From Bacteroidales bacterium (GTDB lineage: Bacteria; Bacteroidota; Bacteroidia; Bacteroidales; Paludibacteraceae): DNA of 48,749 nt. Position 1 is the first letter of the stretch. The number at the start of each line of letters is the position of its first letter. The notes under the pieces are model-generated. The model searched no databases and was not told the DNA's origin. It saw only the letters and a program-made list of their open reading frames with translations. Below, piece by piece: positions 35,458 to 48,537 of the stretch. The stretch is taken from NCBI GenBank assembly GCA_012519425.1, contig JAAYQF010000126.1, positions 1 to 48,749 on the forward strand, read 5' to 3'. A program made the position numbers and the translations under genes.

Positions 35458-36225
35458 AATATTTTGAAGTGTGGCTACAATTGACCATGCAGCGATAGCG
35501 GGCGTTGCACTATATACATCTACTACAGCGTGAACCTCATCATTTTTGATTTCAACCCGCTGGGTATCTCCCACAAAATTGGGCGTCGACTGCATAGTGA
35601 CCTGCATATTATCGGTCCCTACTGATGCAATGGATGCTGCTACTGCAACATTCAACCCGGTCGGAAAAGTACGTATGGCTTCATTGGCATTGCCTGAAAA
35701 CACAATATGTTTTTTCGTTTCAATAATTGGGTCATACACCGAAGAATTTCTCAACCGATCGTGTCCCTTTTCATTGAAGAAGTTAGCTGTGGCATTTCCC
35801 ATCAATGCAGCAGTTCGTAATACATCAAATCCACCGGTAGCTCCGGAAGCAATGTAAACACGGGTTCCACTTTCATTTCCGACTCTTTTCACTTCTGTCA
35901 TAAAATCCTGATCAGCAAAAGCACCCACCGAAATACATACTATAGAAGTTCCATTTTTTAAAGTTGGGATGGCAACTTCCTGCATTCCTGAGGGAGATGC
36001 CATTTCAATTAAAAAATCTGGTTTTAAAGCTAACATTGCATCTAAAGAAGGATAAGCATTACATGCATTTCCGGCTTTTCGGAACCTGTCGGCCAAACGT
36101 TCGGAGCTTGGCACAGACTGAGAATACACTCCAACAAATTCAAACTCGGGAAGCAATCCCCTGATTGCGGCATCTGCAACGATATTGGCAAGATATCCGC
36201 TACCTACAACTACTACTTTTTTCAT
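35437..36225 (-). CDS. nadX: L-aspartate dehydrogenase-like protein
   Basis: A 262-residue protein. The N-terminal Rossmann fold is VVVVGSGYLANIVADAA, and the DUF108 aspartate dehydrogenase C-terminal domain contains IASGATGGFDVLRTA and FPTGLNVAVAASIAS(V)G. Family members oxidise aspartate to iminoaspartate, feeding NAD synthesis, or reduce oxaloacetate with ammonia. The proximity to glnN fits a nitrogen role but does not prove it. The ATG at 36225 directly follows a TATCTTTG box, so the message may be leaderless; an upstream extension in the same frame runs into a repeat element and is not coding. Confidence 0.8.
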   Translation of the reverse strand: MKKVVVVGSGYLANIVADAAIRGLLPEFEFVGVYSQSVPSSERLADRFRKAGNACNAYPSLDAMLALKPDFLIEMASPSGMQEVAIPTLKNGTSIVCISVGAFADQDFMTEVKRVGNESGTRVYIASGATGGFDVLRTAALMGNATANFFNEKGHDRLRNSSVYDPIIETKKHIVFSGNANEAIRTFPTGLNVAVAASIASVGTDNMQVTMQSTPNFVGDTQRVEIKNDEVHAVVDVYSATPAIAAWSIVATLQNIVSPIVF

Positions 36226-36230
36226 ACATG

Positions 36231-36238
36231 CAAAGATA
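36231..36238 (-). promoter_or_regulatory. Predicted -7 promoter box abutting the nadX start codon
   Basis: The minus strand reads TATCTTTG, with only 5 bases between its end and the ATG. The expected start site falls at or next to the start codon. Confidence 0.6.
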
Positions 36239-36290
36239 ATATTATTCGTTTGGAAGGCAAAAGACAGTGTCTTATATTGTTCAACTGCTG

Positions 36291-36349
36291 TACTTCGACC
36301 TTGCTCAGTAACCACGCTGCTTTCGATGGTTGCTGAGCCTGTCGAAGCA
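36291..36349. repeat. REP-like imperfect palindrome
   Basis: The arms at 36291-36314 and 36327-36349 (CTTCGAC…GCTCAG…AACCA against TGGTTGCTGAG…GTCGAAG) pair with a few mismatches around a 12-base loop. This is the shape and wording of extragenic REP elements handled by TnpA-REP transposases. Confidence 0.65.
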
Positions 36350-36376
36350 CGGGTTAAGTCACACATCACGTACAGG

Positions 36377-36477
36377 GTTGCGAGTCTGGATGATTTAGCT
36401 GTTCGGGCGCTAATTTTTCGAGCAAAGCGGGCACAGTCTTGATTTTTTTGCTTCGTTTTTTTGTATCAAGACAAAAA
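36377..36477. repeat. Dispersed intergenic repeat, copy B
   Basis: 36377-36434, read on the minus strand, is nearly identical to positions 1-57 (GCCCGCTTyGCTCGAAAAAT, TAGCGCyCGAACAGCTAAAT). On this copy it is joined to a region with inverted ends CTTGAT and ATCAAG (36438-36470). It lies between fabI and nadX and holds no gene. It may carry the fabI transcript end. Confidence 0.75.
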
Positions 36478-36494
36478 ATGAAGTCAATCAGATT

Positions 36495-37352
36495 TTATCC
36501 ATAAATAACATTGCCGTCTTCATCCTTGATACCTTCAAAACTTTTGATGTATTGCTCCATCGCCCTGTAGCTCATACCCATGCTTGAATAACCACCATCA
36601 TGAAAGAGGTTTTGCATGGTCACTTTCTTCGTCAAGTCGCTGAATAAAGTAATGCAATAGTCTGCACACTCAGCAGCGGTTGCATTTCCGAGAGGCGACA
36701 TACGTTCAGAAAAGTCCATAAGGCTGTCAAATCCTTTGATACCGCTTCCGGCAGTAGTAAGGGTCGGCGATTGTGATATCGTATTGATGCGTACACTGCG
36801 CTTGCGACCGTAGATATATCCAAAACTTCTGGCGATAGACTCCAACATAGCTTTGGCATCTGCCATATCGTTGTAACCATACATGGTACGATGAGCGGCA
36901 CCGTACGTCAAAGCCACTACCGATCCCCATTCATTAATAGCATCTTTTTTATAAGCTACCTGCAACATTTTATGAAAAGAAATGGCAGAAATATCTAAAG
37001 TTTGGTTGAGCATATGGTAATCTAAATCATCGTAAGTACGTTTTTTACGCACGTTGGGAGACATGCCGATAGAATGTAACATAAAATCAATTTTGCCTCC
37101 CATGGCTTGCATGGATTCATCAAAAACTTGCTCCAACTCTTCAACTTTGGTTGCATCCGCAGGAATCAGCTTCGCATTGAGCTTTTCTGCCAACTCTTCC
37201 GTATTGCCCATGCGGATAGCGAAAGGCGTATTCGACAAACTAACGGTAGCACCTTCTTCAACACATCTCTCTGCCACTTTCCAGGCGATAGACATATCAT
37301 TCAACGCACCAAAAATAATCCCTTTTTTACCTTTTAATAAATTATGACTCAT
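36495..37352 (-). CDS. fabI: Enoyl-ACP reductase (FabI type)
   Basis: A 285-residue NADH-dependent reductase for the last step of fatty acid elongation. It is an SDR fold with the cofactor motif GIIFGALNDMSIAWKVAERC, HSIGMSP, and the catalytic pair Tyr160 and Lys167 in YGYNDMADAKAML (Y-x6-K), with Tyr150 as the second FabI tyrosine. The substrate loop region is SPTLTTAGSGIKGF. It has its own promoter and is separated from the DAHP synthase gene by 135 bases. Target of triclosan-type inhibitors in other bacteria. Confidence 0.96.
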   Translation of the reverse strand: MSHNLLKGKKGIIFGALNDMSIAWKVAERCVEEGATVSLSNTPFAIRMGNTEELAEKLNAKLIPADATKVEELEQVFDESMQAMGGKIDFMLHSIGMSPNVRKKRTYDDLDYHMLNQTLDISAISFHKMLQVAYKKDAINEWGSVVALTYGAAHRTMYGYNDMADAKAMLESIARSFGYIYGRKRSVRINTISQSPTLTTAGSGIKGFDSLMDFSERMSPLGNATAAECADYCITLFSDLTKKVTMQNLFHDGGYSSMGMSYRAMEQYIKSFEGIKDEDGNVIYG

Positions 37353-37447
37353 ATGTTTTACTATTTATGCCTTCTGCATAAGCCTTATCTTGCTGTTTTT
37401 TTAGTTTTGAAGACAGCTTCATTTATGCAAAATGACAAATTTCGGCA

Positions 37448-37478
37448 CAAAAGTATACAAAATGTGCAAAACTGACAA
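37448..37478 (-). promoter_or_regulatory. Predicted promoter of fabI with -33 and -7 boxes
   Basis: On the minus strand TTG at 37478-37476 is followed after 20 bases by TACTTTTG (37455-37448), matching the Bacteroidota TTTG-N19/21-TAnnTTTG pattern. The start of transcription would be ~90 bases before the fabI ATG. Confidence 0.6.
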
Positions 37479-37487
37479 TTTATTTGC

Positions 37488-38552
37488 TCATAATTTATTC
37501 ATTATTTCCATTTGATGACGGACAGACTCTTCGTGGATAGCCATCAAAACGGTTTTTATAAAATCTCCTTTCATACCCATTTGTTCAGCTTGTGCTATTC
37601 TGTTCTGAATGATTTCGTCGTAGCGCTGTTCTTGCAGAATAGCCATATTATGTTCCTTTTTATACTGTCCTATTTCTTCAGAAATGCGCATTCTGCGAGC
37701 TAAAAGTTCTAGTAAATGATTATCGCACTCGTCAATTTGACGACGTAGGGCCGTTAAACTTTCAGTGGTTTGATGCGTATCACGAATGACCAGGGCATTT
37801 AGAATCGAATTCAACATTTCAGGTGTAACCTGTTGTTTGGTATCGCTCCATGCTTTATCCGGGTTTGGGTGAGTTTCCACAATCAAACCATCAAAATTTA
37901 AGTCCATGGCCTGCTGTGAAATCGGTCCCACCAACTCCCTTTTCCCACCAATATGACTAGGGTCACAAAGAATGGGTACTTCAGGCATTAACCTACGTAA
38001 CTCAATAGGAATATGCCAAAAAGGCAAATTGCGATAGATTTTTTCATCATAACTACTGAATCCACGATGGATAGCGGCAATTTTTCGTACACCTGCATTA
38101 TAAATACGTTCCAAGGCTCCTATCCATAAATCCAAATCGGGATTGACCGGATTTTTGATGAGCACGGGAATATCCGTTCCCTCCAATGCATCGGCTATTT
38201 CCTGAACTGCAAAGGGATTGGCAGTAGTACGTGCTCCTATCCACAAAATATCTACACCAGCAGCTAAAGCATCATGTACATGCCTGGTATTGGCAACTTC
38301 CGTAGCTACATACATACCCAATTTTTCCTTGACTCTTTTTAGCCAGAGTAATCCCTCTTTCCCAACACCTTCAAAACTTCCGGGTTTTGTTCGGGGTTTC
38401 CAAATCCCCGCCCTGAAAATCCTGATGCCAAATCCATGCAGCTGACGGGCAGTTTCCATTACCTGCTCTTCCGTCTCGGCTGAACAAGGACCGGCAATTA
38501 CCAAAGGACGGCCGGGAACCATACCAGGGAGTAAAATTGATTGTAATTCCAT
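37488..38552 (-). CDS. Bifunctional DAHP synthase / chorismate mutase
   Basis: A 354-residue fusion. Residues ~1-260 form a type I-beta (AroG/KDO8P-like) DAHP synthase with VIAGPCSAETEEQ, RAGIWKPRTKPGSFEGVG, GARTTANPFAVQE, KNPVNPDL, AAIHRGFS and DPSHIGGKR. Residues ~265-350 form an AroQ chorismate mutase (LTALRRQIDECDNHLLELLARRMRISEEIGQYK). The two activities open the shikimate path and lead to prephenate, so the mutase domain may sense phenylalanine or tyrosine. A ~359-base gap lies upstream, containing a possible small ORF but no clear promoter box. Confidence 0.95.
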   Translation of the reverse strand: MELQSILLPGMVPGRPLVIAGPCSAETEEQVMETARQLHGFGIRIFRAGIWKPRTKPGSFEGVGKEGLLWLKRVKEKLGMYVATEVANTRHVHDALAAGVDILWIGARTTANPFAVQEIADALEGTDIPVLIKNPVNPDLDLWIGALERIYNAGVRKIAAIHRGFSSYDEKIYRNLPFWHIPIELRRLMPEVPILCDPSHIGGKRELVGPISQQAMDLNFDGLIVETHPNPDKAWSDTKQQVTPEMLNSILNALVIRDTHQTTESLTALRRQIDECDNHLLELLARRMRISEEIGQYKKEHNMAILQEQRYDEIIQNRIAQAEQMGMKGDFIKTVLMAIHEESVRHQMEIMNKL

Positions 38553-38575
38553 ATCGTTATAAGTTTTGCTTCTTT

Positions 38576-38671
38576 CTAATAATTTCCTGAGAGGAAAATT
38601 TTTTGAGTTGAAGCATCCAAATCTCCTGAAGAACTTTTAGAACAGCTCATTATTTTATTATATAACTTCAT
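38576..38671 (-). CDS. Possible 31-residue small ORF
   Basis: ATG at 38671, TAG at 38576. The peptide begins MKLYNKIMSCSKSSSGDLDA and ends KIFLSGNY. It lies 24 bases upstream of the DAHP synthase ATG and 240 bases after the HlyD-like gene on the same strand. An imperfect stem (AATTTTCCT/AGGAAATT) covers its last codons. It has Tyr and Phe codons but not the runs expected of an attenuator leader, and no GG leader. It may be a leader peptide of the aromatic gene, a small secreted peptide, or chance. The surrounding 38553-38911 holds nothing else I can support. Confidence 0.3.
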   Translation of the reverse strand: MKLYNKIMSCSKSSSGDLDASTQKIFLSGNY

Positions 38672-38911
38672 TTTAATCTTTTTAATATGCGTTGATCCAA
38701 CAAAAATGTGCTTACAACAATTTTGTGATAGGCTCAAAAAAGTTGAAAACACATCAGTTTTTCCCGTTCTTTTTAATTGGTATCAAGTACAGACAGACAG
38801 GACCCCTGTATTTTTTCATCAAAGTTTCATCAGATTTTGAGCAAAAGTTCATCAAGAAATGACAAAAAAATTGCTATTTCTGCGAAGATTTAACATTATT
38901 TAACAGATAAA

Positions 38912-39496
38912 TCAGATGGATTTTTTCAAAAAAGGCAGTATTCTCTCCATCAAACTTCGATTATCCGTTATAATTTCAACTATACCGGGTGTCCTTTCAT
39001 TCAAAAATATTATTTTATGACTGTTCGTTGTTAAATTTTTTACGATTTGCACTTCAACTAAATAATAATTTCCGTCTGGTATATATTCAATTGTATGCGT
39101 TAAACCTTGTAACGTTCCAAATTCCAGGTATGGATAGGCATCTAATTTAATATTTACTTTTTGTCCGGGCTTGATTTTTCCGGCTCTTGCTGACGGCACC
39201 TCAGCATACACCATTATTTGATCTTGCTTGAATTCATCCGCATCCGGTAACTGCTGTGTTTCCGTAACAATCAATTCTCCGGTAATGATATCAGGATATT
39301 CAAAGAAAAAGCTACCAACAATCAGAATTAACAAAACTCCACAAATCACTGATGTTCCGTACCTTATCAGTGATTTAGGCGGACGGGCAAGAATTTCCTG
39401 TACTTCCCGACTGCGTAATTCTATGCTCCCTTCTTCCATCTTCTTCGAAGATGTATCGGTTGATTGTTTTGGTAAATCCCTGTGTTTGTGGGTCAT
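38912..39496 (-). CDS. Internally truncated HlyD-type membrane fusion protein
   Basis: A 194-residue protein. The N-terminus (RSREVQEILARPPKSLIRYGTSVICGV) and membrane helix (SVICGVLLILIVGSFFF) followed by YPDIITGELIVTE match HlyD adaptors of peptidase-type exporters. The C-terminal part (IMVYAEVPSARAGKIKPGQKVNIKLDAYPYLEFGTLQG to RSLMERILPF) matches their beta-barrel domain. The lipoyl and coiled-coil middle, about 200-250 residues in normal relatives of ~420, is missing, and no remnant lies in the flanks. The reading frame is intact across the junction. It is 71 bases downstream of the ABC gene. It could still brace the exporter but should not reach an outer-membrane channel. Confidence 0.78.
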   Translation of the reverse strand: MTHKHRDLPKQSTDTSSKKMEEGSIELRSREVQEILARPPKSLIRYGTSVICGVLLILIVGSFFFEYPDIITGELIVTETQQLPDADEFKQDQIMVYAEVPSARAGKIKPGQKVNIKLDAYPYLEFGTLQGLTHTIEYIPDGNYYLVEVQIVKNLTTNSHKIIFLNERTPGIVEIITDNRSLMERILPFLKKSI

Positions 39497-39567
39497 ATCA
39501 TCTATTTTTACCTTTTACACTGTTTGCTTTTCATCTCCTTTATTCAGTCATTTTATAAGTAACAATC

Positions 39568-41298
39568 CTACAATTCCAATTGATTCTTAACCAAATGATA
39601 ATAAGTTCCTTTCTTTTTAGTGAGTGATGCATGGTCTCCAATTTCCACAATTTCACCATTGTCTAATACCACTATTTGATCGGCATTCTTTACTGTACTT
39701 AATCTGTGGGCAATGACTACAGATGTTCTTCCTTCAAAGAATTGCTCCAAATGATTCATGATAACTTTCTCATTCTGTGTATCCAAAGCATTGGTAGCTT
39801 CATCAAAGAACAAGTAAGCCGGATGCTTGTAAACCGCTCTGGCAATTAGGATACGCTGCTTCTGTCCCTGACTGATCGCATAGCCGTCGGAACCGATTTT
39901 GGTGTCATATTTCGAAGATAAGGATTCGACAAACTCTCTGATATTAGCTATGTTAACAGCACGAAGCAATTTTGTTTTGTCGATTTCCTCCTCTCCGGGT
40001 GCAATATTTCCGGCAATGCTGTCTGTAAAAATAAAACCATCCTGCATCACCACACCACATTTTTTTCGCCATTCCCGATAATTGTATGCCGACAGATCCT
40101 TGTCACCCAGCAAGATTTCACCATGTTGAGGTTGATAAAAGCCAAGCAGCAGCTTCAGTAGTGTAGTTTTTCCGCTTCCACTCAACCCCACTATGGCAGT
40201 CTGTTTCCCTGCCGGAATATGTAAATTAATATTTTTCAATACCGGTTTTCCCACTGATGTTGTATCGTATGCGAAACTCATATTATGGATGTGAATATCC
40301 TGATGATCAGGTATTTCATTTATCAGAGGGACAGAGGCATTTTCACCTTCTGCAGGTTTGTCATGCACCTCGCTCAACCTTTCCATACTCAGTTTAGCAT
40401 CTTGTGATTCACGGTAAAAATGGATCAGATGGTCGATAGGACTGTTTAGCTGTCCAAGGATATACTGCACTGACAACATCATCCCCAAAGTCATTTGTCC
40501 ATCTATGACAAACTTGGCTACCAATGCCGTGATGATCACGTTTTTAGTCTGGTTGATAAAGATTGCACCTGAATCCTGGTACTGACTGAGCGCCAAGCCT
40601 TTGATGCGCAACTTAAAAAGCCTGGCTTGAATGCGCTCCCACTCCCATCTTTTTTGTTGCTCACATGCATTCAATTTGATTTCCTGCATACCTGTAATCA
40701 ACTGAATAACATTACTTTGATTAGCAGCCTGTTGTGCGAAATTTTTATGATCCAGGGTAGCACGTTTGTCCATAAACAAACTCACCCAGCTAAAATACAA
40801 AACACTCCCAACGACAAAAATCAAAAAAACCGTCACATTGTAAAACAGCAAAATCAATGTGAATATAACGATATTAAACATGCTAAAAAGCACGTTAAGC
40901 GTGGAGTTTGTCAAATAATCCTGTATGCGCGTATGGTCGCCCATGCGTTGCATTAAATCGCCGGTCATTTTTTTGTCAAAATAACCCATAGGCAAGCGCA
41001 TCAACTTAGCCAGGTAGTCGGAAATCAAGGAGATATTGACTCGCGTACCGATGTGTAGCAATATCCAACCCCTGATGAATTCTACGGTTGAAGCACTAAA
41101 AATCAGCACTAATTGAGCGATGAGTACTAAATAGATGTAATGAATATCCTGTGCCGATATACCAAAATCGACAATGGACTGCGTAAGAAAAGGTAATAGA
41201 AGCTGTAACAGACTGCCAAAGAACAGCCCCAGAAACAATTGAAATATTAGCTTTCTATAAGGTTTTAGATAGGAAAAGAGGAAAGAGAGTCCGCGGGC
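39568..41298 (-). CDS. ABC exporter membrane and ATPase domains (3' part of a peptidase-containing ABC transporter)
   Basis: About 576 codons. A six-helix transmembrane domain (LFLGLFFGSLLQLLLPFLTQSIVDFGI onward) is followed by an ATPase with Walker A GLSGSGKTTLLK, signature ISQGQKQRILIARA, Walker B AYLFFDEATNALD and the H-loop in VIAHRLSTV. There is no ATG ahead of the first membrane helix; a TTG at 41238 is the only late start and would remove part of the linker. The frame opens directly at the A-run in which the C39 gene ends out of register. A -1 shift there fuses peptidase and exporter into ~734 residues, the normal length. Its likely substrates are the GG peptides upstream. Confidence 0.88.
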   Translation of the reverse strand, partial: ARGLSFLFSYLKPYRKLIFQLFLGLFFGSLLQLLLPFLTQSIVDFGISAQDIHYIYLVLIAQLVLIFSASTVEFIRGWILLHIGTRVNISLISDYLAKLMRLPMGYFDKKMTGDLMQRMGDHTRIQDYLTNSTLNVLFSMFNIVIFTLILLFYNVTVFLIFVVGSVLYFSWVSLFMDKRATLDHKNFAQQAANQSNVIQLITGMQEIKLNACEQQKRWEWERIQARLFKLRIKGLALSQYQDSGAIFINQTKNVIITALVAKFVIDGQMTLGMMLSVQYILGQLNSPIDHLIHFYRESQDAKLSMERLSEVHDKPAEGENASVPLINEIPDHQDIHIHNMSFAYDTTSVGKPVLKNINLHIPAGKQTAIVGLSGSGKTTLLKLLLGFYQPQHGEILLGDKDLSAYNYREWRKKCGVVMQDGFIFTDSIAGNIAPGEEEIDKTKLLRAVNIANIREFVESLSSKYDTKIGSDGYAISQGQKQRILIARAVYKHPAYLFFDEATNALDTQNEKVIMNHLEQFFEGRTSVVIAHRLSTVKNADQIVVLDNGEIVEIGDHASLTKKKGTYYHLVKNQLEL

Positions 41299-41771
41299 TT
41301 TTTTTTTTCGGCATCCTTCTGATCATAAAAATCAGGCATTGGCTCCAATAGTAACGCGATTCCTACGTCAGCCCCATCCTTACGGGTACTGAGCCAAGAC
41401 CGGCAAAATTCTTCTTTGGTGTATTTAAGCTTTTCCGCGCCGGGGTCGGCTACATACACATAATCTTCCCCCTTGACAGTTTTAATGTCGTAGACCACCA
41501 CAAAATGCTGTTGGTTCCAATAGACAATGCATGGCAGGGGAGCTTTGTTTTTCAACTCTTCAAACCCCACATATACACCCAAGGTGCGAAACCCCAGGTT
41601 GCTGGCTGCTTCACTGATACCCAACAGAGAAACGCCTCCCCGGGTAAAATGAGATTTTTCGCGCAACTCCTCCAACGAAAAACGCTTACCATAATGGGCT
41701 GCAATCATACGCAAACAAGTGGGACCGCAATCCATCTGATCATGCTGATGGTAAAAAGGAAATTTTGCCAT
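41265..41771 (-). CDS. C39-family leader peptidase (5' part of a peptidase-containing ABC transporter)
   Basis: 168 residues as read; the C39 domain is residues 1-~140. Catalytic residues are Gln9, Cys15 (QMDCGPTCL), His89 (QQHFVVVYDI) and Asp109 (YVADPG), all intact. Such domains cut double-glycine leaders during export. After residue ~155 the frame runs through A10 into an unrelated tail (PADSLSSFPI) and stops, whereas the -1 frame continues into the conserved linker GLSFLFSYLKPYRKLIFQ and the exporter. So either this is half of a split gene, or it yields both a free peptidase and a fusion. Identical GG-peptide genes lie just upstream. Confidence 0.92.
   Translation of the reverse strand: MAKFPFYHQHDQMDCGPTCLRMIAAHYGKRFSLEELREKSHFTRGGVSLLGISEAASNLGFRTLGVYVGFEELKNKAPLPCIVYWNQQHFVVVYDIKTVKGEDYVYVADPGAEKLKYTKEEFCRSWLSTRKDGADVGIALLLEPMPDFYDQKDAEKKKPADSLSSFPI
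41296..41309 (-). other. Slippery A-run at the C39/ABC junction
   Basis: The minus strand reads G followed by ten A and GCC. In the peptidase frame the codons are GAA AAA AAA AAG, which contains the classic -1 heptamer A AAA AAG. Slipping one base back makes the next codons GCC CGC GGA CTC, the exporter frame. A purine-rich AGAAGGA lies ~10 bases upstream, as in the dnaX signal. The same result would follow from polymerase slippage, length variation of the run, or a sequencing error. Confidence 0.8.
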
Positions 41772-41785
41772 GTGGTAGTAATAAA

Positions 41786-41805
41786 CTTGCAGGTGTTACT
41801 GCAAG
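41786..41805 (-). promoter_or_regulatory. Hairpin between the peptide genes and the peptidase/exporter genes
   Basis: CTTGCAG and CTGCAAG form a perfect 7-bp stem with a 6-base loop in the ~107-base gap before the C39 start. On the minus strand TTTATTAC follows, which makes a weak terminator possible. It could lower exporter expression relative to the peptides or protect the peptide mRNA 3' end. Confidence 0.5.
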
Positions 41806-41878
41806 AAAACTTCAGTGGGTAATTTGAATGAATTCTTTATTATCAGGTCGTTTTAAATCCTGACAGGCTTCAAGAGCT

Positions 41879-42004
41879 TTATTTTACTTTAATTCTTACT
41901 TTCTTTCCGTTCGGAAAAGTAATTATTATATAGTAACCACCTCTTGTTTCATTCATTTGTTCAGCGGTCATTGACCTAAAGTTGTTTTCATTAATAGTTT
42001 TCAT
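41879..42004 (-). CDS. Double-glycine leader peptide precursor, copy 1
   Basis: 41 residues, too short for usual gene calling. The leader is residues 1-23, beginning MKTINENNF and ending TAEQMNETRGG, with the GG at 22-23 and the spaced hydrophobic residues (F9, M12, M17) typical of C39 substrates. The predicted mature core is 18 residues, YYIIITFPNGKKVRIKVK. It has no cysteine, charge about +6, and two strands flanking a PNGK turn, so a beta-hairpin is likely. The first gene of the C39-ABC-HlyD cassette lies 108 bases downstream. Product identical to copy 2. Role as bacteriocin or signal is inferred. Confidence 0.85.
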   Translation of the reverse strand: MKTINENNFRSMTAEQMNETRGGYYIIITFPNGKKVRIKVK

Positions 42005-42065
42005 AATCGTAAAATTTTGCTTGGAATTAAATATTAATTTCTGACTTGTAATGTAGTATTCAGTA

Positions 42066-42191
42066 TTACTTTACTTTAATTCTTACTTTCTTTCCGTTCG
42101 GAAAAGTAATAATAATATAATAACCACCTCTTGTTTCATTCATTTGCTCAGCAGTCATTGATCTGAAGTTGTTTTCGTTAATAGTTTTCAT
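42066..42191 (-). CDS. Double-glycine leader peptide precursor, copy 2
   Basis: 41 residues, amino-acid identical to copy 1 but different at nine codons (5, 9, 10, 13, 15, 24, 26, 27 and 41), all synonymous. Such a pattern indicates selection on the peptide. An in-frame ATG 15 codons upstream is rejected because copy 1 lacks it while sharing the rest of the leader region. The copies are 187 bases apart, start to start. This copy is closest to the divergent histidine kinase gene and probably to the cassette promoter, which I could not locate with confidence. Confidence 0.85.
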   Translation of the reverse strand: MKTINENNFRSMTAEQMNETRGGYYIIITFPNGKKVRIKVK

Positions 42192-42342
42192 AATTGTAAA
42201 TTTTACTTGGATTAAACATTTATTAATTTCTGACATGCAATGTTAATGATTTTCACTTGATTAAAAATGCTCAAAAATTCACCAATACTTTCTTAGCTGT
42301 CGCAAATGGGAAAGATTTGATGAAATTTTGACAGAAATAGTT

Positions 42343-42350
42343 TATCTTTG
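42343..42350 (+). promoter_or_regulatory. Predicted -7 promoter box for the kinase-regulator pair
   Basis: TATCTTTG matches TAnnTTTG, 43 bases before the histidine kinase ATG. It lies in the 202-base divergent region shared with the peptide genes. Confidence 0.6.
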
Positions 42351-42393
42351 TAAGACGATTCAGATATCGTGCATTTTTTTAGTACAAAAACAC

Positions 42394-43737
42394 ATGTCCA
42401 CGTCCACCAAAACCATATCCTACATTGCCATAGTTTCCATAATATTGATTTTATGTGCGCAAGCTTATTTGGTTTATGATTATTTTCAAACAGTGCGACT
42501 TGCACTGATACGAGAATCGGATACCATTTTAAAAGAAGCGTTCAGAGCTGATTTAAACCAAAGAAATACCAATCTTGATATTATGCCTGATGAAAACGAG
42601 AATATTGACCCCACCGATGATGCTGAATTCGTTGATTTTGATTTGAGCGAGGGTTCTGAAGATGAAGAAAGCATTTTAAACAAACTTGATATCATCATGC
42701 ATATCTATATAAGTAATTTTATTCCAATTGACTTACAAAAATTAGATAGCATCACCAATCAAATCCTCCATGAAAGAAATATTACTTCTGAATTTGTCAT
42801 TCAATTAATAGCGCCTGAAGATCAAACAGTAGTAGCAAGCTCAAAAAAGCTGTCCAAATCGTCAATTTTTCTTATTCCATCCCAGCTTTATCCCCTGGAT
42901 TTTGAAAACAAAGAAGCATTGAAATTGATTTTAATCAACCCCTTTTCTGAAATCATCAAGCGTATGGGTCTAATGTTATTGGGTTCCATCATTTTTTCCA
43001 TCATCGCCTTATTGGCTTTCAGATTCTTATTCCTCACACTTTCCAAACAGAAAAAATTAGTAAGATTCAAAAACGAATTTTTAAGCAATATCGCCCATGA
43101 ATTAAAGCGTCCGGTAGCCAGTCTGACTGTCAATCTGGACGGACTTCAAGACCCTGACATCTTTGACAATACAGGCATGCGTGACATGATGCTGCACAAT
43201 TCCCTCAACGCACTTACTGAAATGAATGGCACCATCAGCATGTTGGTTGGACTAGCCCGGGAAGAAGAAGGATTGCTTGTTCTGAACAAACAGCCTGTCA
43301 ATTTGGTTGACATCATCATAGACCTGAAGAATCGCTTTGTATCTTCTCCTGCCAAGCGTGTCAGCATCCACACTGACTTTGAATCTGAAGCGATTATAGT
43401 TCAGGGTGACAGCATCATGCTTACTCAATGTTTTGCAAATTTGATCGATAATGCCATCAAATATTCGGACGGAGATGCCACCGTCAATATCAGCGTCCAT
43501 ATGAACAAGTCAAATGTTATTTTGGCATTCGAAGATAAAGGCATGGGAATTCCTGCTGACAAAATTGAACATATCTTTGAAAAATATTCACGTGTTGATG
43601 ACCATTCCAAAGTTTCGGGATTTGGTATAGGACTAAATTATGTAAAAACCATCATAGAAAAACATGGTGGTTCAATCAGTGTCAGCAGTGAAATCCACGT
43701 TGGATCAACCTTTAAAGTATTATTACCCTGTAAATAA
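42394..43737 (+). CDS. Membrane histidine kinase
   Basis: 447 residues. Transmembrane helix 1 is near residues 8-28 (SYIAIVSIILILCAQAYLVY). A periplasmic sensor of ~175 residues, very acidic near 65-95, is followed by transmembrane helix 2 at ~208-228, then a phospho-acceptor domain with His235 in NIAHELKRPVASL and a HATPase domain with the N-box NLIDNAIKYSDG, G1 DKGMGIPADK and G2 GFGIGLNYV. No HAMP is evident. The ATG at 42394 is the first after the promoter box. The stop is 3 codons before the response regulator. Divergent from the peptide cassette, so it may sense the peptide or envelope effects of it; unproven. Confidence 0.9.
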   Translation: MSTSTKTISYIAIVSIILILCAQAYLVYDYFQTVRLALIRESDTILKEAFRADLNQRNTNLDIMPDENENIDPTDDAEFVDFDLSEGSEDEESILNKLDIIMHIYISNFIPIDLQKLDSITNQILHERNITSEFVIQLIAPEDQTVVASSKKLSKSSIFLIPSQLYPLDFENKEALKLILINPFSEIIKRMGLMLLGSIIFSIIALLAFRFLFLTLSKQKKLVRFKNEFLSNIAHELKRPVASLTVNLDGLQDPDIFDNTGMRDMMLHNSLNALTEMNGTISMLVGLAREEEGLLVLNKQPVNLVDIIIDLKNRFVSSPAKRVSIHTDFESEAIIVQGDSIMLTQCFANLIDNAIKYSDGDATVNISVHMNKSNVILAFEDKGMGIPADKIEHIFEKYSRVDDHSKVSGFGIGLNYVKTIIEKHGGSISVSSEIHVGSTFKVLLPCK

Positions 43738-43743
43738 ATCGGT

Positions 43744-44445
43744 ATGAAGAAAATATTAGTCGTAGAAGATGATGTAAATTTAGGAACTGCTTTAATTGGC
43801 TTCCTTGAGATGCAAAAACACGAGGTGAATTATGTTAGTAACGGAGATGAAGCAGTATCGGAATTTCAGCGTTTTCAACCTGATCTGGTAACGCTTGATG
43901 TGGTTCTGAACTGTAGCGTAGATGGCTTTGAAATTGCGAGGCAGATCAGGCAAATCAGTGATGTGCCCATTATTTTTACGACCTCACGGGATGGCAACGA
44001 AGATTATGAAACAGGTTTCGGCATTGCAAACAGCGATTATGTTAGAAAACCATATCGCTTGGTTGAATTATTATTACGTATCAACAAGATGATTGAAGTC
44101 GAAACACTTTCATCCGCCGCTGATAATCATTTCCGCATCGGTCGTTTTCAATTCTTTCCCGATGAACAATCATTAAAATTCAGCAAAGGTGATATTCATT
44201 TAAGTCCTATTGATTCTTCGGTATTGAATTTACTTTGCCGAAACAAAGGAAAATTTGTACCACGCGAAGAAATCATCAGGTTGGTGTGGCAAGTTGAAGA
44301 CACACAATCGAAGGAAACAGCTTTGTATAATTCCATATCAAGACTGAAGAAATATCTTTTCAACGACGAACAGGTGAAAATTGAAAATAAAATCAGATTG
44401 GGGATCAGAATCAGGGATTTGAATGACAAAAGCACAAAAGAATAA
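43744..44445 (+). CDS. OmpR/PhoB-type response regulator
   Basis: 233 residues. The receiver has the acidic pair Glu8/Asp9-10 (VVEDD), phospho-acceptor Asp52 (VTLDVVLN), Thr79/80 (FTTSRDG) and Lys102 (VRKPYR), all intact. The C-terminal winged helix binds DNA (LSPIDSSVLNLLCRNKGKFVPREEIIRLVW…SISRLKKYL). It resembles the RprY-type regulators of Bacteroidales. It follows the kinase by 6 bases and is surely its partner. It ends 3 bases before the convergent DUF4302 gene. Confidence 0.93.
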   Translation: MKKILVVEDDVNLGTALIGFLEMQKHEVNYVSNGDEAVSEFQRFQPDLVTLDVVLNCSVDGFEIARQIRQISDVPIIFTTSRDGNEDYETGFGIANSDYVRKPYRLVELLLRINKMIEVETLSSAADNHFRIGRFQFFPDEQSLKFSKGDIHLSPIDSSVLNLLCRNKGKFVPREEIIRLVWQVEDTQSKETALYNSISRLKKYLFNDEQVKIENKIRLGIRIRDLNDKSTKE

Positions 44446-44448
44446 AAA

Positions 44449-45783
44449 TTAATTTTTGACCTGTCTTTCCAATTGGAAAAAAGAAGTGTAGTCATTCAGG
44501 TTTTCAAATTTTATCAACCACGGATTTAATTTTGAGCCCGTACTCAATTCAAAATCAGCAGTAAGAACTGATACTACCAATTCATCCACACCATCTATTT
44601 CATTATAAAACTTTAAGCCGTTGTTGTCCCCTGAATTGGCATAGCTAATGGATAAGACATCTTGTTCATCAAATGCCATATTTAAATTCAAAGACCCTTT
44701 TACTTTTTTATTTTCTTTCAAATAGCTGATCACTAACACAAAAGAATTTGCATTTGTACTATATTCCAAATTCAAAGCAAGCTGTTCACCTTCATACGCA
44801 GTTAATACAGCGCTGGAAATTCTGTTGTACAAGTTTTTAAATTCATTACCTGAAAGTTCAGAAGCAAATCGCCAGGAAAATTCTTTGGGATTATTTTGAA
44901 TAAATTCAGCAAGATCGTTGGTACAGCGGATGGCATAGTCAGGATGCTCCACGCTGACCAATCTGGTTTTTGTCAGATTCAACTCAAAGTTCCTGAACAC
45001 AACACCGTTTAGTTCAATTGGCTGATAGAATTGAATACCAGTAGGAGTTACTATAAAAGGAACTTTTTGAGATTCCTTATCGGTTTTTTTAATTTCAAAC
45101 ACATGAAATCTCCCCTTATAAATTCGATAAAACACATCATCAACCTTTAAGGTCAACATAGGCACATCCATGTGAAAGAGCATCTTGTCCATGTCACCCA
45201 GCTCATCTAAATAAGTCTGCCATTGGATTTCGGGTGCTAATTTGGTCATGGTAATTTCAGCACCATATTTTTTGCCTTTCAACCACACCGTATCTTCCAC
45301 TGCTTCCTTGATGATAAATTCATAATCACCCTGCCAGCCGTAACCAATAAGATATCCCTCCTCATGTGGATCAAGTATTTCCGGATGCTCAGGATTAGAA
45401 AACACGTGCAGCACCTGATTGAAAGTATTGAAAGTGAGCACCGGACCGTTGTCAGCAATAACCTCATACAAGGAACTATCCTGCTCATAGGTAGCATTTT
45501 TCGTCAATAAACTTCTTGAAGCGATGGTGACTAAGCCGGAAGCATCAAACTTCATCAACAAAGTATAGCCTCCTCCTTGTGTATTGGCATAATACTCCAT
45601 TTTCCACCCATTTTCAGCCGATATCAACACATCCTCATACGTACTCATTGCCTGATTCAAACGCTCAGCCGGAGAATTTGGAAAGATATCAATTTCCTCC
45701 TTCCGGCAACCTGTAAAAAGGAATAAGATGCTTAATAGCAGCAAGATGCTTGGTTTGTTTGATATTTTATTGTTTTTTTTCAA
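44449..45783 (-). CDS. DUF4302 lipoprotein
   Basis: 444 residues. Signal peptide with lipobox FLFTGC (Cys26). The sequence fits DUF4302: PAERLNQAMSTYEDVLISAENGWKMEYYANTQGGGYTLLMKFDASG near the N-terminus, then a beta-rich body. Members lie on the cell surface or periplasm in Bacteroidota uptake loci beside SusC/SusD and an HExxH lipoprotein, exactly the order here (minus strand: SusC, SusD, metallopeptidase, DUF4302). Role unknown, presumably binding or handling of a peptide-like nutrient. A 237-base spacer with repeats separates it from the metallopeptidase. Confidence 0.88.
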   Translation of the reverse strand: MKKNNKISNKPSILLLLSILFLFTGCRKEEIDIFPNSPAERLNQAMSTYEDVLISAENGWKMEYYANTQGGGYTLLMKFDASGLVTIASRSLLTKNATYEQDSSLYEVIADNGPVLTFNTFNQVLHVFSNPEHPEILDPHEEGYLIGYGWQGDYEFIIKEAVEDTVWLKGKKYGAEITMTKLAPEIQWQTYLDELGDMDKMLFHMDVPMLTLKVDDVFYRIYKGRFHVFEIKKTDKESQKVPFIVTPTGIQFYQPIELNGVVFRNFELNLTKTRLVSVEHPDYAIRCTNDLAEFIQNNPKEFSWRFASELSGNEFKNLYNRISSAVLTAYEGEQLALNLEYSTNANSFVLVISYLKENKKVKGSLNLNMAFDEQDVLSISYANSGDNNGLKFYNEIDGVDELVVSVLTADFELSTGSKLNPWLIKFENLNDYTSFFQLERQVKN

Positions 45784-45800
45784 AATTACGAGTATTTATG

Positions 45801-46015
45801 GAAGTTAATGAAGTTAGTAGTTAGTAGTTAGTAGTTAGTAGTTAGTAGTTATGAAGTTAAAGAAGTTAAAGAAGTTAGAGAAGTTAGAGAAGTTAAGAAG
45901 TTAGAATTTTAAACCACAAAAAGCACAAAAGAAATTTCATCACTCACTATTCACCATCCACCAATCACTAATTCATCTTTTGTCTTTGTTCTTTTGTCTT
46001 TGCTCTTTGTTCTTA
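45801..46015. repeat. Composite low-complexity spacer
   Basis: GTTAGTA-type 7-mers (45815-45850) are followed by GAAGTTAAA/GAAGTTAGA 9-mers (to 45906), then CACTATTCACCATCCACC-like units near 45945-45970 and a TTTGTCTTTGTTC-type block (45976-46015). The last is the reverse complement of the 15-mer family at 21431. It fills the gap between two lipoprotein genes. Confidence 0.85.
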
Positions 46016-46020
46016 GTTTT

Positions 46021-46935
46021 TTACATCTCATTCTGCCTCCTCATAATCTCATCTCTCAGCTCATCAATATCAATATTCCAGGAGTCTCGCAGCCATTTCT
46101 TGACAATTTCCAGTTTTTGCAAGATCAATGCTTTTCCATCGATGCCGTCATCCGGTAATTCATCACCATTATAATCCAATCCCGGATTGGCTGCCATGGT
46201 TAATATCTCATTCCACTGCGCGTCTGTTTTTACCAAATAATTGGCAATAATTTCGACAAAATCTTCACGATTCTGGCTGCCAGCATAAGGCGAAACAAAA
46301 CCCATACTTGCAGCTTCAGAAGCGGTGCGATACTGCCATCCGAGCGGATTATACTTCCCTTGTGAGATCAATCCAAATTCCACAGGGTAATTTCTTTTCT
46401 GATGCAGGATATGCGCAAACTCATGGTGCATGGTCTTGAAATAATATTCATTCATTTTATCTACATCCGTAGAATCCAACTCATTGCAGCGGAATAAGGT
46501 CACTTTCAAACCGCCCTCAGCAGTTCCCAACAACATGGTACCCGACATGGGATTATAAGCAGGTGATCCAATCAGATGAATGATGCGGGGACCATTTTCT
46601 TTCAGAAATTCCGGTCCGACCACCGTACTATACACATCAAACCATAAATACTTGACCAATCGCGCCATTTCCCGGGCTTTTTCAAAAGAGACCGGCACCA
46701 AATTATAACTCATATCCGAACCCACATCCTCCATCCTGTATCTGAAATCTACGTTGTAAGGTTTCAGATAATTTTCATCCAACCAGGAATCAAAGGCATA
46801 ACTTGCTGCACTTTCATCCACCTGATCTTCTATGTCGAAAATGCTGGCAGTGAAATGTTCATCATCGGCACAAGTCCACAAGAGCATTGCGATAAACGAA
46901 AGAGCAATATATTTGATAAAAGCTTTGATATTCAT
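46021..46935 (-). CDS. SusCD-associated zinc metallopeptidase lipoprotein
   Basis: 304 residues. Lipoprotein signal with Cys22 (MLLWTC). The zinc motif MHHEFAHILHQ contains HExxH; the downstream residues TASEAASMGFVSPYAGSQNREDFVEIIANY may supply the third ligand, as in the substrate-import-associated zinc metallohydrolase family. Outer-membrane or surface-facing location is likely. Its position between SusD and DUF4302 suggests it trims peptide or protein substrate for import. It begins 21 bases after the SusD stop. Confidence 0.9.
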   Translation of the reverse strand: MNIKAFIKYIALSFIAMLLWTCADDEHFTASIFDIEDQVDESAASYAFDSWLDENYLKPYNVDFRYRMEDVGSDMSYNLVPVSFEKAREMARLVKYLWFDVYSTVVGPEFLKENGPRIIHLIGSPAYNPMSGTMLLGTAEGGLKVTLFRCNELDSTDVDKMNEYYFKTMHHEFAHILHQKRNYPVEFGLISQGKYNPLGWQYRTASEAASMGFVSPYAGSQNREDFVEIIANYLVKTDAQWNEILTMAANPGLDYNGDELPDDGIDGKALILQKLEIVKKWLRDSWNIDIDELRDEIMRRQNEM

Positions 46936-46956
46936 TATAATTCTACATTGAAAATC

Positions 46957-48537
46957 TTAGTTCTTAAATTTTTCATACATTTCCGATGATTGTGCATCCA
47001 TCGTTCTTGGATTGGATTCCATGCCGGCACTGATCACCTCTTGCGGCAATTGAATGGCACGCCGTTCATCATCGAATGACAGTTGTTGAAGACCTTTTCC
47101 ATCAATATTATGCGTAATCTCGATGCCATAGCGTTTGATATCAAACCACCTGTATCCGTCGAACATGGTTTCTATTCGTCTGAAATGCAATACGCAATGG
47201 ATCAAAGGCAATTGCTCAGGAGTTATTTTAAACTGATTGCTCATTTTAGCGTTTCTCAAACCCTTAACAAACAATATATTATGGGGCCTATAGAAATTAT
47301 TAATGACGTCTAAGGTCAATTCTTCCGGGGCTAAATGCGAACTGTTCCACACCTGCAAATCGGCAACGGCTTCATTGATACGATCCAGATAAATCAGAGC
47401 TTCTGCCCGGCACAACAAGGTCTCTTCCGCTGTAAACTCTGCACGAACAATGTGCGTAAAGCCAATACCGGCGACCTTGTCCGTATATTCAAACATTTCA
47501 GATGCTTTTGGGAAGAAAACACCATAATCCTGTTGCACACTGATATACAGTTTTCCGTCAAATGCAGGAAGAACTGTTGACCAGGTTGGACCACTTCCAT
47601 AAGTCGAACCAAACATGGCATCATAATTATGTCCGTATCGCTTTCCGTAAATTCTGCCAAACAAAGAACTTGTGGGCAACAGTAAAAAATTGGCTGCCTG
47701 GTTGACGCTGACATAATCATAGATAATAGCATCAATATTATCATAATCAACATCCCATCTTCTCATCAAGTTAGTGGGATTGGTACCCAATACTTTATCG
47801 GCATACTTCACCACTTTCTGATAATCTCTTTTATACAAATAAAAACGGGCAGCAAAGGCATTGGCTGCTTTTGTATTAAAATGATATTTGGGAACTGTAT
47901 AATGATGGTCGGAGATCAATGCCAAACCTGCCTCCAGATCTTCTTCAATTTTCGCATAGACCTCTTGTACCGATTCACGTTTGTAATCAGCACTTACAAC
48001 AGTTTCCGACTGTGTTACATAGGGAACGCCGGGATCTACCTGACTACGTTCTTCATCTTTATAAGCCTGAGCAAAAATATTGACCAAAATAAAATGGCTG
48101 TAGGCGCGACATAAAAGTGCTTCTCCCTTTTGTGCCGACAAATCCAGGCTTGCATCCTGTTCCGTTAGTTCAGCTATGGCTTCTAAAGCCTGATTGGCGG
48201 TAGCAATGGCGGCATAACAACTTTCCCAAACAAAAGACGGACTGTCTTGACGCGTGGAAGAAGTCACCGGTTCCCATGCAAAAATCTCATCGTGCATGCG
48301 TTCGTAAGCAGATAGTTGTACCGGCAAAATAGCATTGTTGTCCACAAAATTATCCGAGCTTAGTTCCGCCAAAACCGCATAATTAGCTCCGGGGTAAGCT
48401 GACACCAGCAATTGATTGATTTTCTTTTCCGTGTCAATCTGTGTTCTGTTGTCGGGCAGCGTATCCAGAAACTGCTCACAGGAAGCAAAGCCAATGCTCA
48501 GTACCACTAACAACAATATGTATATTTTCCACTTCAT
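46957..48537 (-). CDS. SusD/RagB-type nutrient-binding outer-membrane lipoprotein
   Basis: 526 residues. Lipoprotein signal MKWKIYILLLVVLSIGFASC (Cys20). N-terminal SusD-like region (FLDTLPDNRTQIDTEKKINQLLVSAYPGANYAVLAELSSDNF), tetratricopeptide-like helices (GEALLCRAYSHFILVNIFAQAY; AANAFAARFYLYKRDYQKVVKYAD) and the C-terminal RRIETMFDGYRWFDIKRYG signature. It binds substrate as a lid on the SusC barrel whose gene lies directly upstream. With the HExxH and DUF4302 lipoproteins the ligand is more likely peptide-derived than a glycan. Confidence 0.95.
   Translation of the reverse strand: MKWKIYILLLVVLSIGFASCEQFLDTLPDNRTQIDTEKKINQLLVSAYPGANYAVLAELSSDNFVDNNAILPVQLSAYERMHDEIFAWEPVTSSTRQDSPSFVWESCYAAIATANQALEAIAELTEQDASLDLSAQKGEALLCRAYSHFILVNIFAQAYKDEERSQVDPGVPYVTQSETVVSADYKRESVQEVYAKIEEDLEAGLALISDHHYTVPKYHFNTKAANAFAARFYLYKRDYQKVVKYADKVLGTNPTNLMRRWDVDYDNIDAIIYDYVSVNQAANFLLLPTSSLFGRIYGKRYGHNYDAMFGSTYGSGPTWSTVLPAFDGKLYISVQQDYGVFFPKASEMFEYTDKVAGIGFTHIVRAEFTAEETLLCRAEALIYLDRINEAVADLQVWNSSHLAPEELTLDVINNFYRPHNILFVKGLRNAKMSNQFKITPEQLPLIHCVLHFRRIETMFDGYRWFDIKRYGIEITHNIDGKGLQQLSFDDERRAIQLPQEVISAGMESNPRTMDAQSSEMYEKFKN

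Follow-up and report, generated by a model that had tools for sequence, protein, structure and literature searches.

What does a peptide with a double-glycine (GG) leader do when its genes lie between an exporter and a two-component pair in a Bacteroidales genome? This question is raised by a stretch of 48,749 nucleotides from a member of the Paludibacteraceae (contig JAAYQF010000126.1 of assembly GCA_012519425.1), hereafter called the window. Its positions 38,912–44,445 hold two precursor peptide genes, genes for a C39 peptidase, an ABC transporter and an HlyD-type adaptor, and a divergent sensor kinase with its response regulator. The window is one contig of genome G000 (2.39 Mb, 142 contigs), whose near relatives in our set are G005 ('Bacteroidetes bacterium ADurb.Bin174') and G028, G069, G033, G029 and G068 (Paludibacter sp.). 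Our analysis suggests that the module is probably an autoinducing peptide signal circuit with positive feedback. In such a circuit, the C39 domain would cut the 41-residue precursor after the GG, and the attached ABC transporter would pump the peptide out of the cytoplasm, releasing an 18-residue beta-hairpin. This hairpin would be the ligand for the extracytoplasmic domain of the divergent kinase, which has two membrane helices, and the OmpR/PhoB-type regulator would bind 11-base-pair (bp) repeats upstream of the precursor genes and raise expression of the module. In three relatives the kinase gene and an HNH gene are also preceded by repeats that the regulator may bind.

Precursor peptides and the kinase beside them

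The precursor gene that adjoins the two-component pair (42066..42191, minus strand) has 41 codons and encodes the leader MKTINENNFRSMTAEQMNETRGG, which ends in RGG, followed by the core YYIIITFPNGKKVRIKVK of 18 residues without cysteine. The unmodified core has a calculated average mass of about 2180.7 Da. The second copy (41879..42004, minus strand) encodes the same protein. Both open reading frames (ORFs) are as the first-pass annotation, made from the window sequence alone, had described them. The two copies differ at nine of 123 coding bases, and all nine differences are synonymous. Since only 19% of random single changes in this ORF would be synonymous, the outcome has a P of about 4e-7, which indicates that selection has acted on both copies as protein-coding genes. 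Among Pfam and NCBIfam families, none matched the window precursor above its cut-off. The AlphaFold2 model (nine precursors) folds the core into a beta-hairpin with strands at residues 23–29 and 35–40 (predicted local distance difference test scores, pLDDT, of 74 and 80 for the two blocks), in agreement with the strand-turn-strand form proposed earlier; the leader is poorly predicted, and the whole-model pLDDT is only 63.6. Across loci the cores share this pattern of a strand, a turn with glycine, most often as DG or NG, and then another strand.

On the plus strand, the sensor histidine kinase (42394..43737) has two predicted membrane helices with an alpha/beta domain between them, then HisKA and HATPase_c, and is followed by an OmpR/PhoB-type response regulator (43744..44445) with Response_reg and Trans_reg_C; all four domains score over their cut-offs. 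The pair diverges from the same gap as the peptide genes, as had been noted before. The model of the sensor domain found no match in the PDB at E <= 0.001 (best 0.12); the weak matches include the sensor domains of CzcS, CusS and further kinases, and we claim no sensor family. A query with the sensor part found relatives at E <= 1e-10 in 23 of 48 genomes of the genus and in seven of 393 genomes of the order (the window's own included). We defined the kinase family as the 26 of 37 distinct matches with E <= 4e-37 that were not cut by a contig end. Eight weaker matches (E >= 2e-17) were placed in an 'other' group, the family cut-off being set at that gap, and three strong matches cut by contig ends (L198, L200, L202) were left out.

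A GG ORF was then counted for a kinase if it lay no more than 1 kb away on the other strand, began with ATG, had a fitting length and carried GG at a fitting place. Such a divergent ORF accompanies 18 of the 26 family kinases. The background, taken from 80 other loci and with true members counted in, is 59 GG ORFs in 1,054,233 bp (0.028 per kb and strand). Of the 26 kinases, eight served as seeds, and it was the peptide that had first led to another four; among the remaining 14, six have a GG ORF (P about 1e-6). The family reaches beyond the genus into other Bacteroidales families (G266, G402, G180, and G037 with three copies). In four genomes (G019, G018, G062, G022) peptide and kinase stand together with no C39-ABC gene in the 3–4 kb examined. 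Judged by gene neighborhoods, the divergent kinase-regulator pair is thus the steadiest partner of the peptide and the exporter less so, which corrects the first-pass annotation, where the exporter had been the defining partner. This steadiness favors a signal over a bacteriocin, a question on which the first-pass annotation had not decided.

The link extends to the sequences of peptide and receptor. Core distances correlate with sensor distances after removal of kinase-domain distances (Mantel test, partial r 0.417, permutation p 0.0005, n = 17), and the correlation of core with kinase distances given the sensor is 0.097 (n = 17). This test omitted L195, with a partial kinase, and L199, L213 and L252, which are of the other type. 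The 'other' group itself consisted of 24 rows, reduced to 21 as L205 and L228 have too little upstream DNA and the kinase of L210 is that of L219; L229 and L230 (cut) and repeat kinases had been left out. Four of these 21 kinases have a GG ORF (L199, L203, L213, L252), so the kinase-peptide layout may extend to other kinase subfamilies. In G402:C9:484006-492610 and in L252, three related kinases occur in one stretch, one of them with a divergent GG ORF (core IWYLVRREDGSIGLVFRRD).

The precursor ORF is also kept next to C39-ABC genes in seven of the 48 genus genomes, namely G000, G005, G028, G069, G033, G029 and G068, and this conservation in relatives was one of the points on which the first-pass annotation had let its proposal hang, so that the proposal was not refuted. 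Across the order, a precursor search gave matches in seven of 393 genomes at E <= 0.01, the window's own included. Matches in G287, G314, G288 and G128 were not credited, as they lie inside frames of 530–791 residues; further ones were found in G121 (leader part only; frames of 39 and 29 residues) and G417 (64 residues). At five loci (L082, L083, L084, L087, L012) the peptide is followed downstream by a protein of 233–265 residues of two recurring types (INLAQLSTKDLAALSQR... and NFSLFPSEELYSFSKK...). None of the five has an adjacent exporter, and a 161-residue part of one of these proteins gave only NCBIfam matches below cut-off.

Phased 11-bp repeats upstream of the precursor genes

PhoB-type regulators bind 11-bp direct repeats. 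The regions upstream of the peptide gene were scored for repetition at each period, with 40 rounds of dinucleotide shuffles as the null. At period 11, the mean over 18 loci was 5.44 compared to 3.10 (standard deviation 0.18) in the null, a z of 13.0, while periods 7–10 and 12–16 gave z from -1.9 to 0.7. The repeat unit approximates T(G/T)AGAACTTTG. The repeats are also mostly phased relative to a downstream, promoter-like TAnnATTG element, which follows the third repeat at 37 bases in seven loci and at 26 bases in three, distances that lie one repeat apart and together cover 10 of the 18 loci; in the four loci of the window's clade the distance is 28–29 bases. For L181 the chosen register of the box is poor. 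Such phased tandem repeats are as expected for the box of an OmpR/PhoB-type regulator.

The window's own box (42263..42295, minus strand), which precedes the precursor genes, is a degenerate tandem, TAAGAAAGTAT TGGTGAATTTT TGAGCATTTTT, followed by TAACATTG at 42238-42245, and is visible by alignment with G005, G028 and G069. Before the kinase gene lies a promoter-like stretch (42316..42350, plus strand; TTTG ... TATCTTTG), which we take to resemble the Bacteroidales -33/-7 consensus.

A matrix was built from the peptide-side boxes, so that kinase-side boxes, HNH-side boxes and loci without a peptide are out-of-sample. In G033, G029 and G068 it found hits ahead of both the kinase gene and the HNH gene, and it also found divergent boxes in seven of the eight family loci without an intact peptide ORF. 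The null scan gave four hits of score >= 14 in 424,364 bp, and none of the eight scanned loci with kinases of the other type had a matrix hit. At the loci without an intact peptide, the leader is decayed (in G002, MKRVKKDAACFKEL and then a stop), the core lacks a GG (G015), or no fitting ORF was seen. At L185, L190 and L194, where kinase and box are kept and the peptide gene is decayed or without GG, the kinases may be receivers in systems that make no signal themselves.

The HNH ORF (145–153 residues) stands between peptide and exporter in three of the seven genomes with both, G033, G029 and G068 (L060:5154-5591, L061:4786-5223, L062:1618-2079), and has its own 11-bp box upstream. The one that was tested matched PF01844 with 30.3 bits. 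That three relatives carry a like box ahead of an HNH gene suggests that further genes can come under the control of the circuit. A degenerate 11-bp repeat array further lies 3′ of the adaptor gene in the window (38811..38863, minus strand). It is the counterpart of strong arrays in G069 and G028 (L098:3178-3232 and L099:10782-10837, scores 26.7) and is degenerate in G005 as well; no small ORF after the adaptor was seen to be shared by G000, G005, G069 and G028.

Frame break in the exporter and shortened adaptors

The export cassette for a GG peptide was recognized correctly in the first-pass annotation, with C39, ABC and HlyD_3 domains above cut-offs, and its separate C39 and ABC genes turned out to be one gene with a frame break. 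The C39 peptidase domain (41265..41771, minus strand; PF03412, 115.8 bits) is the leading portion of a peptidase-containing ABC transporter (PCAT) that is split here, and its catalytic residues C15, H89 and D109 are invariant in seven of seven sequences. The transporter part, with ABC_membrane and ABC_tran also above cut-offs, occupies 576 codons in the -1 frame (39568..41298, minus strand), where the first start codon is a TTG at 41238, 20 codons in. Between the two lies a tract of ten adenines, A10 (41299..41308, minus strand; 0 frame GAA AAA AAA AAG), the same in G005, the nearest species, and the C39 frame ends after it, with 168 codons, in the window as in G005. Relative to G028 and G069, the alignment shows a one-base gap at this tract in both the window and G005. 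Elsewhere, C39 and ABC form a single ORF of 727–754 residues in 17 of 18 loci read, the eighteenth being G005. Among the C39 matches in the genus, 23 of 29 lie in open frames of 709–763 residues, and the six shorter frames are those of the window (176), G005 (186) and four others (86, 314, 439 and 592).

The sequence on either side of the frame break is constrained. Between the window and G005, the ratio of nonsynonymous to synonymous divergence (dN/dS) is 0.032 before A10 (synonymous divergence, dS, 0.57) and 0.026 in the transporter frame (dS 0.53), a strong purifying selection on both halves that is unlike the pattern of a pseudogene. The 12 codons of the 0 frame past A10 carry three nonsynonymous and no synonymous changes compared to G005, as if constraint acted only on the -1 frame. 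A10 is the sole run of A or T longer than 8 in the window. It contains, in the right frame, the heptamer A AAA AAG, which we take to be the dnaX slippery heptamer, with a purine-rich AGAAGGA upstream. Features of a programmed -1 frameshift are thus present, namely an in-frame slippery heptamer, a shared break and selection on both frames, in two species only. Beside these likenesses to dnaX-type -1 frameshifting there are two differences: no RNA structure beyond chance follows A10 (z -0.36, -0.09, 0.35), so that no stimulatory structure was found, and the A tract is longer, which makes transcriptional slippage as likely.

The shift may therefore come from transcriptional or ribosomal slippage, either of which could yield the full transporter, or a base may be missing in both assemblies, or the tract may vary within the population. 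The reading without recoding, which concerns the split exporter alone and takes A10 for an on/off phase-variation switch or for an error shared by both assemblies, has a little under an even chance. Tracts of ten identical bases are prone to variation, both assemblies are drafts, and recoding finds no help in RNA structure. However, A10 keeps its length and place in two species at a dS of about 0.5, and both the run of nonsynonymous changes in the 0 frame and the correctly framed heptamer speak against this reading.

The adaptor (38912..39496, minus strand; 194 residues) matches HlyD_3 with 26.0 bits (cut-off 22.2). The first-pass annotation's 'mini-HlyD' was right as to the type, but the protein is not merely small: it is without the lipoyl domain and the alpha-helical hairpin that belong to HlyD/MFP adaptors docking an outer-membrane factor. 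Short adaptors of 171–194 residues occur in G000, G005, G028, G069 and G029, and so in five of the seven loci that combine the peptide with the exporter. They retain both membrane helix and barrel and lack about 250 residues, the lipoyl and hairpin region, that are found in G033, G068, G018 and G022. A tree built from transporter parts only unites G000, G005, G028 and G069 in a single clade (93/93, slightly short of the threshold for firm support) and places G029 with G033 and G068 (100/100). From these positions, the region was apparently lost twice in the genus. Known adaptors dock TolC through this hairpin, so export may here deliver the peptide to the periplasm. A more radical possibility, which we consider doubtful, is an undescribed Bacteroidales family in which the hairpin goes only to the periplasm, the kinase reports the secretion state of its own cell and not the population, and, in the lineage of the window, slippage at A10 provides two forms of the exporter, a free C39 peptidase and a full transporter. 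In G063 a PCAT is accompanied by an HlyD-type adaptor that is shortened in another way (227 residues; L063:2477-3160).

Signal, bacteriocin or envelope factor

The closest known architecture is that of ComCDE/BlpC in streptococci, with a GG peptide, a peptidase ABC exporter and accessory protein, an adjacent two-component pair and the logic of autoinduction. The window and the 18 family kinases described above likewise place a GG peptide gene beside the genes of a kinase and its regulator. The window precursor gave no match to the ComC or BlpC family models and its relatives remained below the cut-offs: two reached 15.1 and 12.8 bits for ComC (cut-off 20.4) and one reached 12.9 for BlpC (cut-off 70). 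ComE is a regulator of the LytTR type and ComD a multi-helix kinase. Here, in contrast, we find a two-helix HisKA/HATPase_c kinase with an extracytoplasmic domain, an OmpR/PhoB-type regulator, a predicted beta-hairpin core, a Gram-negative host and a divergent layout. By family model, kinase type and regulator type, the module is not a member of ComCDE/BlpC.

Several observations weigh against a signal circuit. Bacteriocin genes can also be kinase-linked and autoregulated. Eight of the 26 family loci have no intact GG ORF, and G064 (L196) has neither such an ORF nor a box. A C39 gene lies on the same contig as the peptide in G063 (about 6.4 kb away) and G017 (about 4.3 kb), which makes independence from the exporter less clear there. 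The 18 upstream regions behind the period-11 score come partly from close relatives, L201, L208 and L209 are without the TAnnATTG element, and L209 also has no matrix hit. The window box is not significant alone, by period or by matrix; the best hit in the window scores 8.4, lies elsewhere and is not a credible site. Finally, the Mantel test leaves some shared ancestry in the correlation between core and sensor.

The main competing explanation is that the hairpin is an antibacterial peptide similar to class II bacteriocins, and that the kinase-regulator pair senses some other cue and controls its production. A GG leader with a peptidase-transporter and an adaptor is the usual bacteriocin kit, the core of the window is strongly basic (net charge about +4.8), and bacteroidetocins show that GG-leader toxins are made by Bacteroidales (PMC6671954). 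Against this, the positive charge is not conserved among the compared cores, and no gene lies between peptides and exporter in the window, G005, G028 or G069, immunity genes elsewhere not having been sought. The kinase moreover stays with the peptide where the examined stretch holds no exporter. The 17 compared cores have 14–19 residues, far shorter than the 42 residues, with four cysteines and a thiol oxidoreductase in the region, that the same source gives for bacteroidetocins (PMC6671954). As that source defines them by a core of 35–50 residues with at least two cysteines, the 18-residue, cysteine-free peptide of the window is no bacteroidetocin, despite the shared GG leader and order. Taken together, we regard a bacteriocin as unlikely.

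Some other GG peptides of the order travel with modifying enzymes. PMC10352776 reports PCATs with GG precursors in Bacteroidales clusters for ribosomally synthesized and post-translationally modified peptides (RiPPs), with a kinase and regulator noted in one of nine clusters. These RiPP clusters carry modifying enzymes, whereas none was recognized by family name, where tested, among the ORFs at 36000–47000 of the window, consistent with the earlier remark that no such enzyme lies nearby. Putative bacteriocin clusters of gut Bacteroides, as far as the text at hand extends, include one listed as unmodified and another with HlyD, ABC, a GG peptide and C39 (PMC4573289); the C39 clusters there have radical SAM genes, and those parts mention no kinase pair for Bacteroides. 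PCAT-GG pairs and one kinase-regulator pair are thus already in print (PMC10352776), so that each component has a precedent and the novelty lies in the module. In the open-licence literature, with partial coverage, we found no published description of a module of peptide, kinase and box.

It is improbable that the kinase belongs to an envelope-stress type of system, with the exported hairpin acting on the producer's own envelope and not as a signal: the hairpin-less adaptor suggests periplasmic release, given the docking role of that region, and in three relatives boxes are common to the promoters of peptide and kinase, but core divergence tracks sensor divergence, which is unexpected without contact between the two, and kinase and box persist in several genomes with a decayed or missing peptide ORF.

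Quorum sensing by peptides that act through two-component kinases is known chiefly from Gram-positive bacteria. If the signal circuit is the right reading, a peptide-kinase-box module across several Bacteroidales families would give the order a tractable signal, with a predicted ligand, receptor and DNA site. The possibly recoded exporter and the hairpin-less adaptor would be separate oddities of Gram-negative peptide export. Adjoining the module, the window continues at 44449–48537 with DUF4302, Peptidase_Mx1 and SusD-like_3 genes, a cluster of the nutrient-uptake type.

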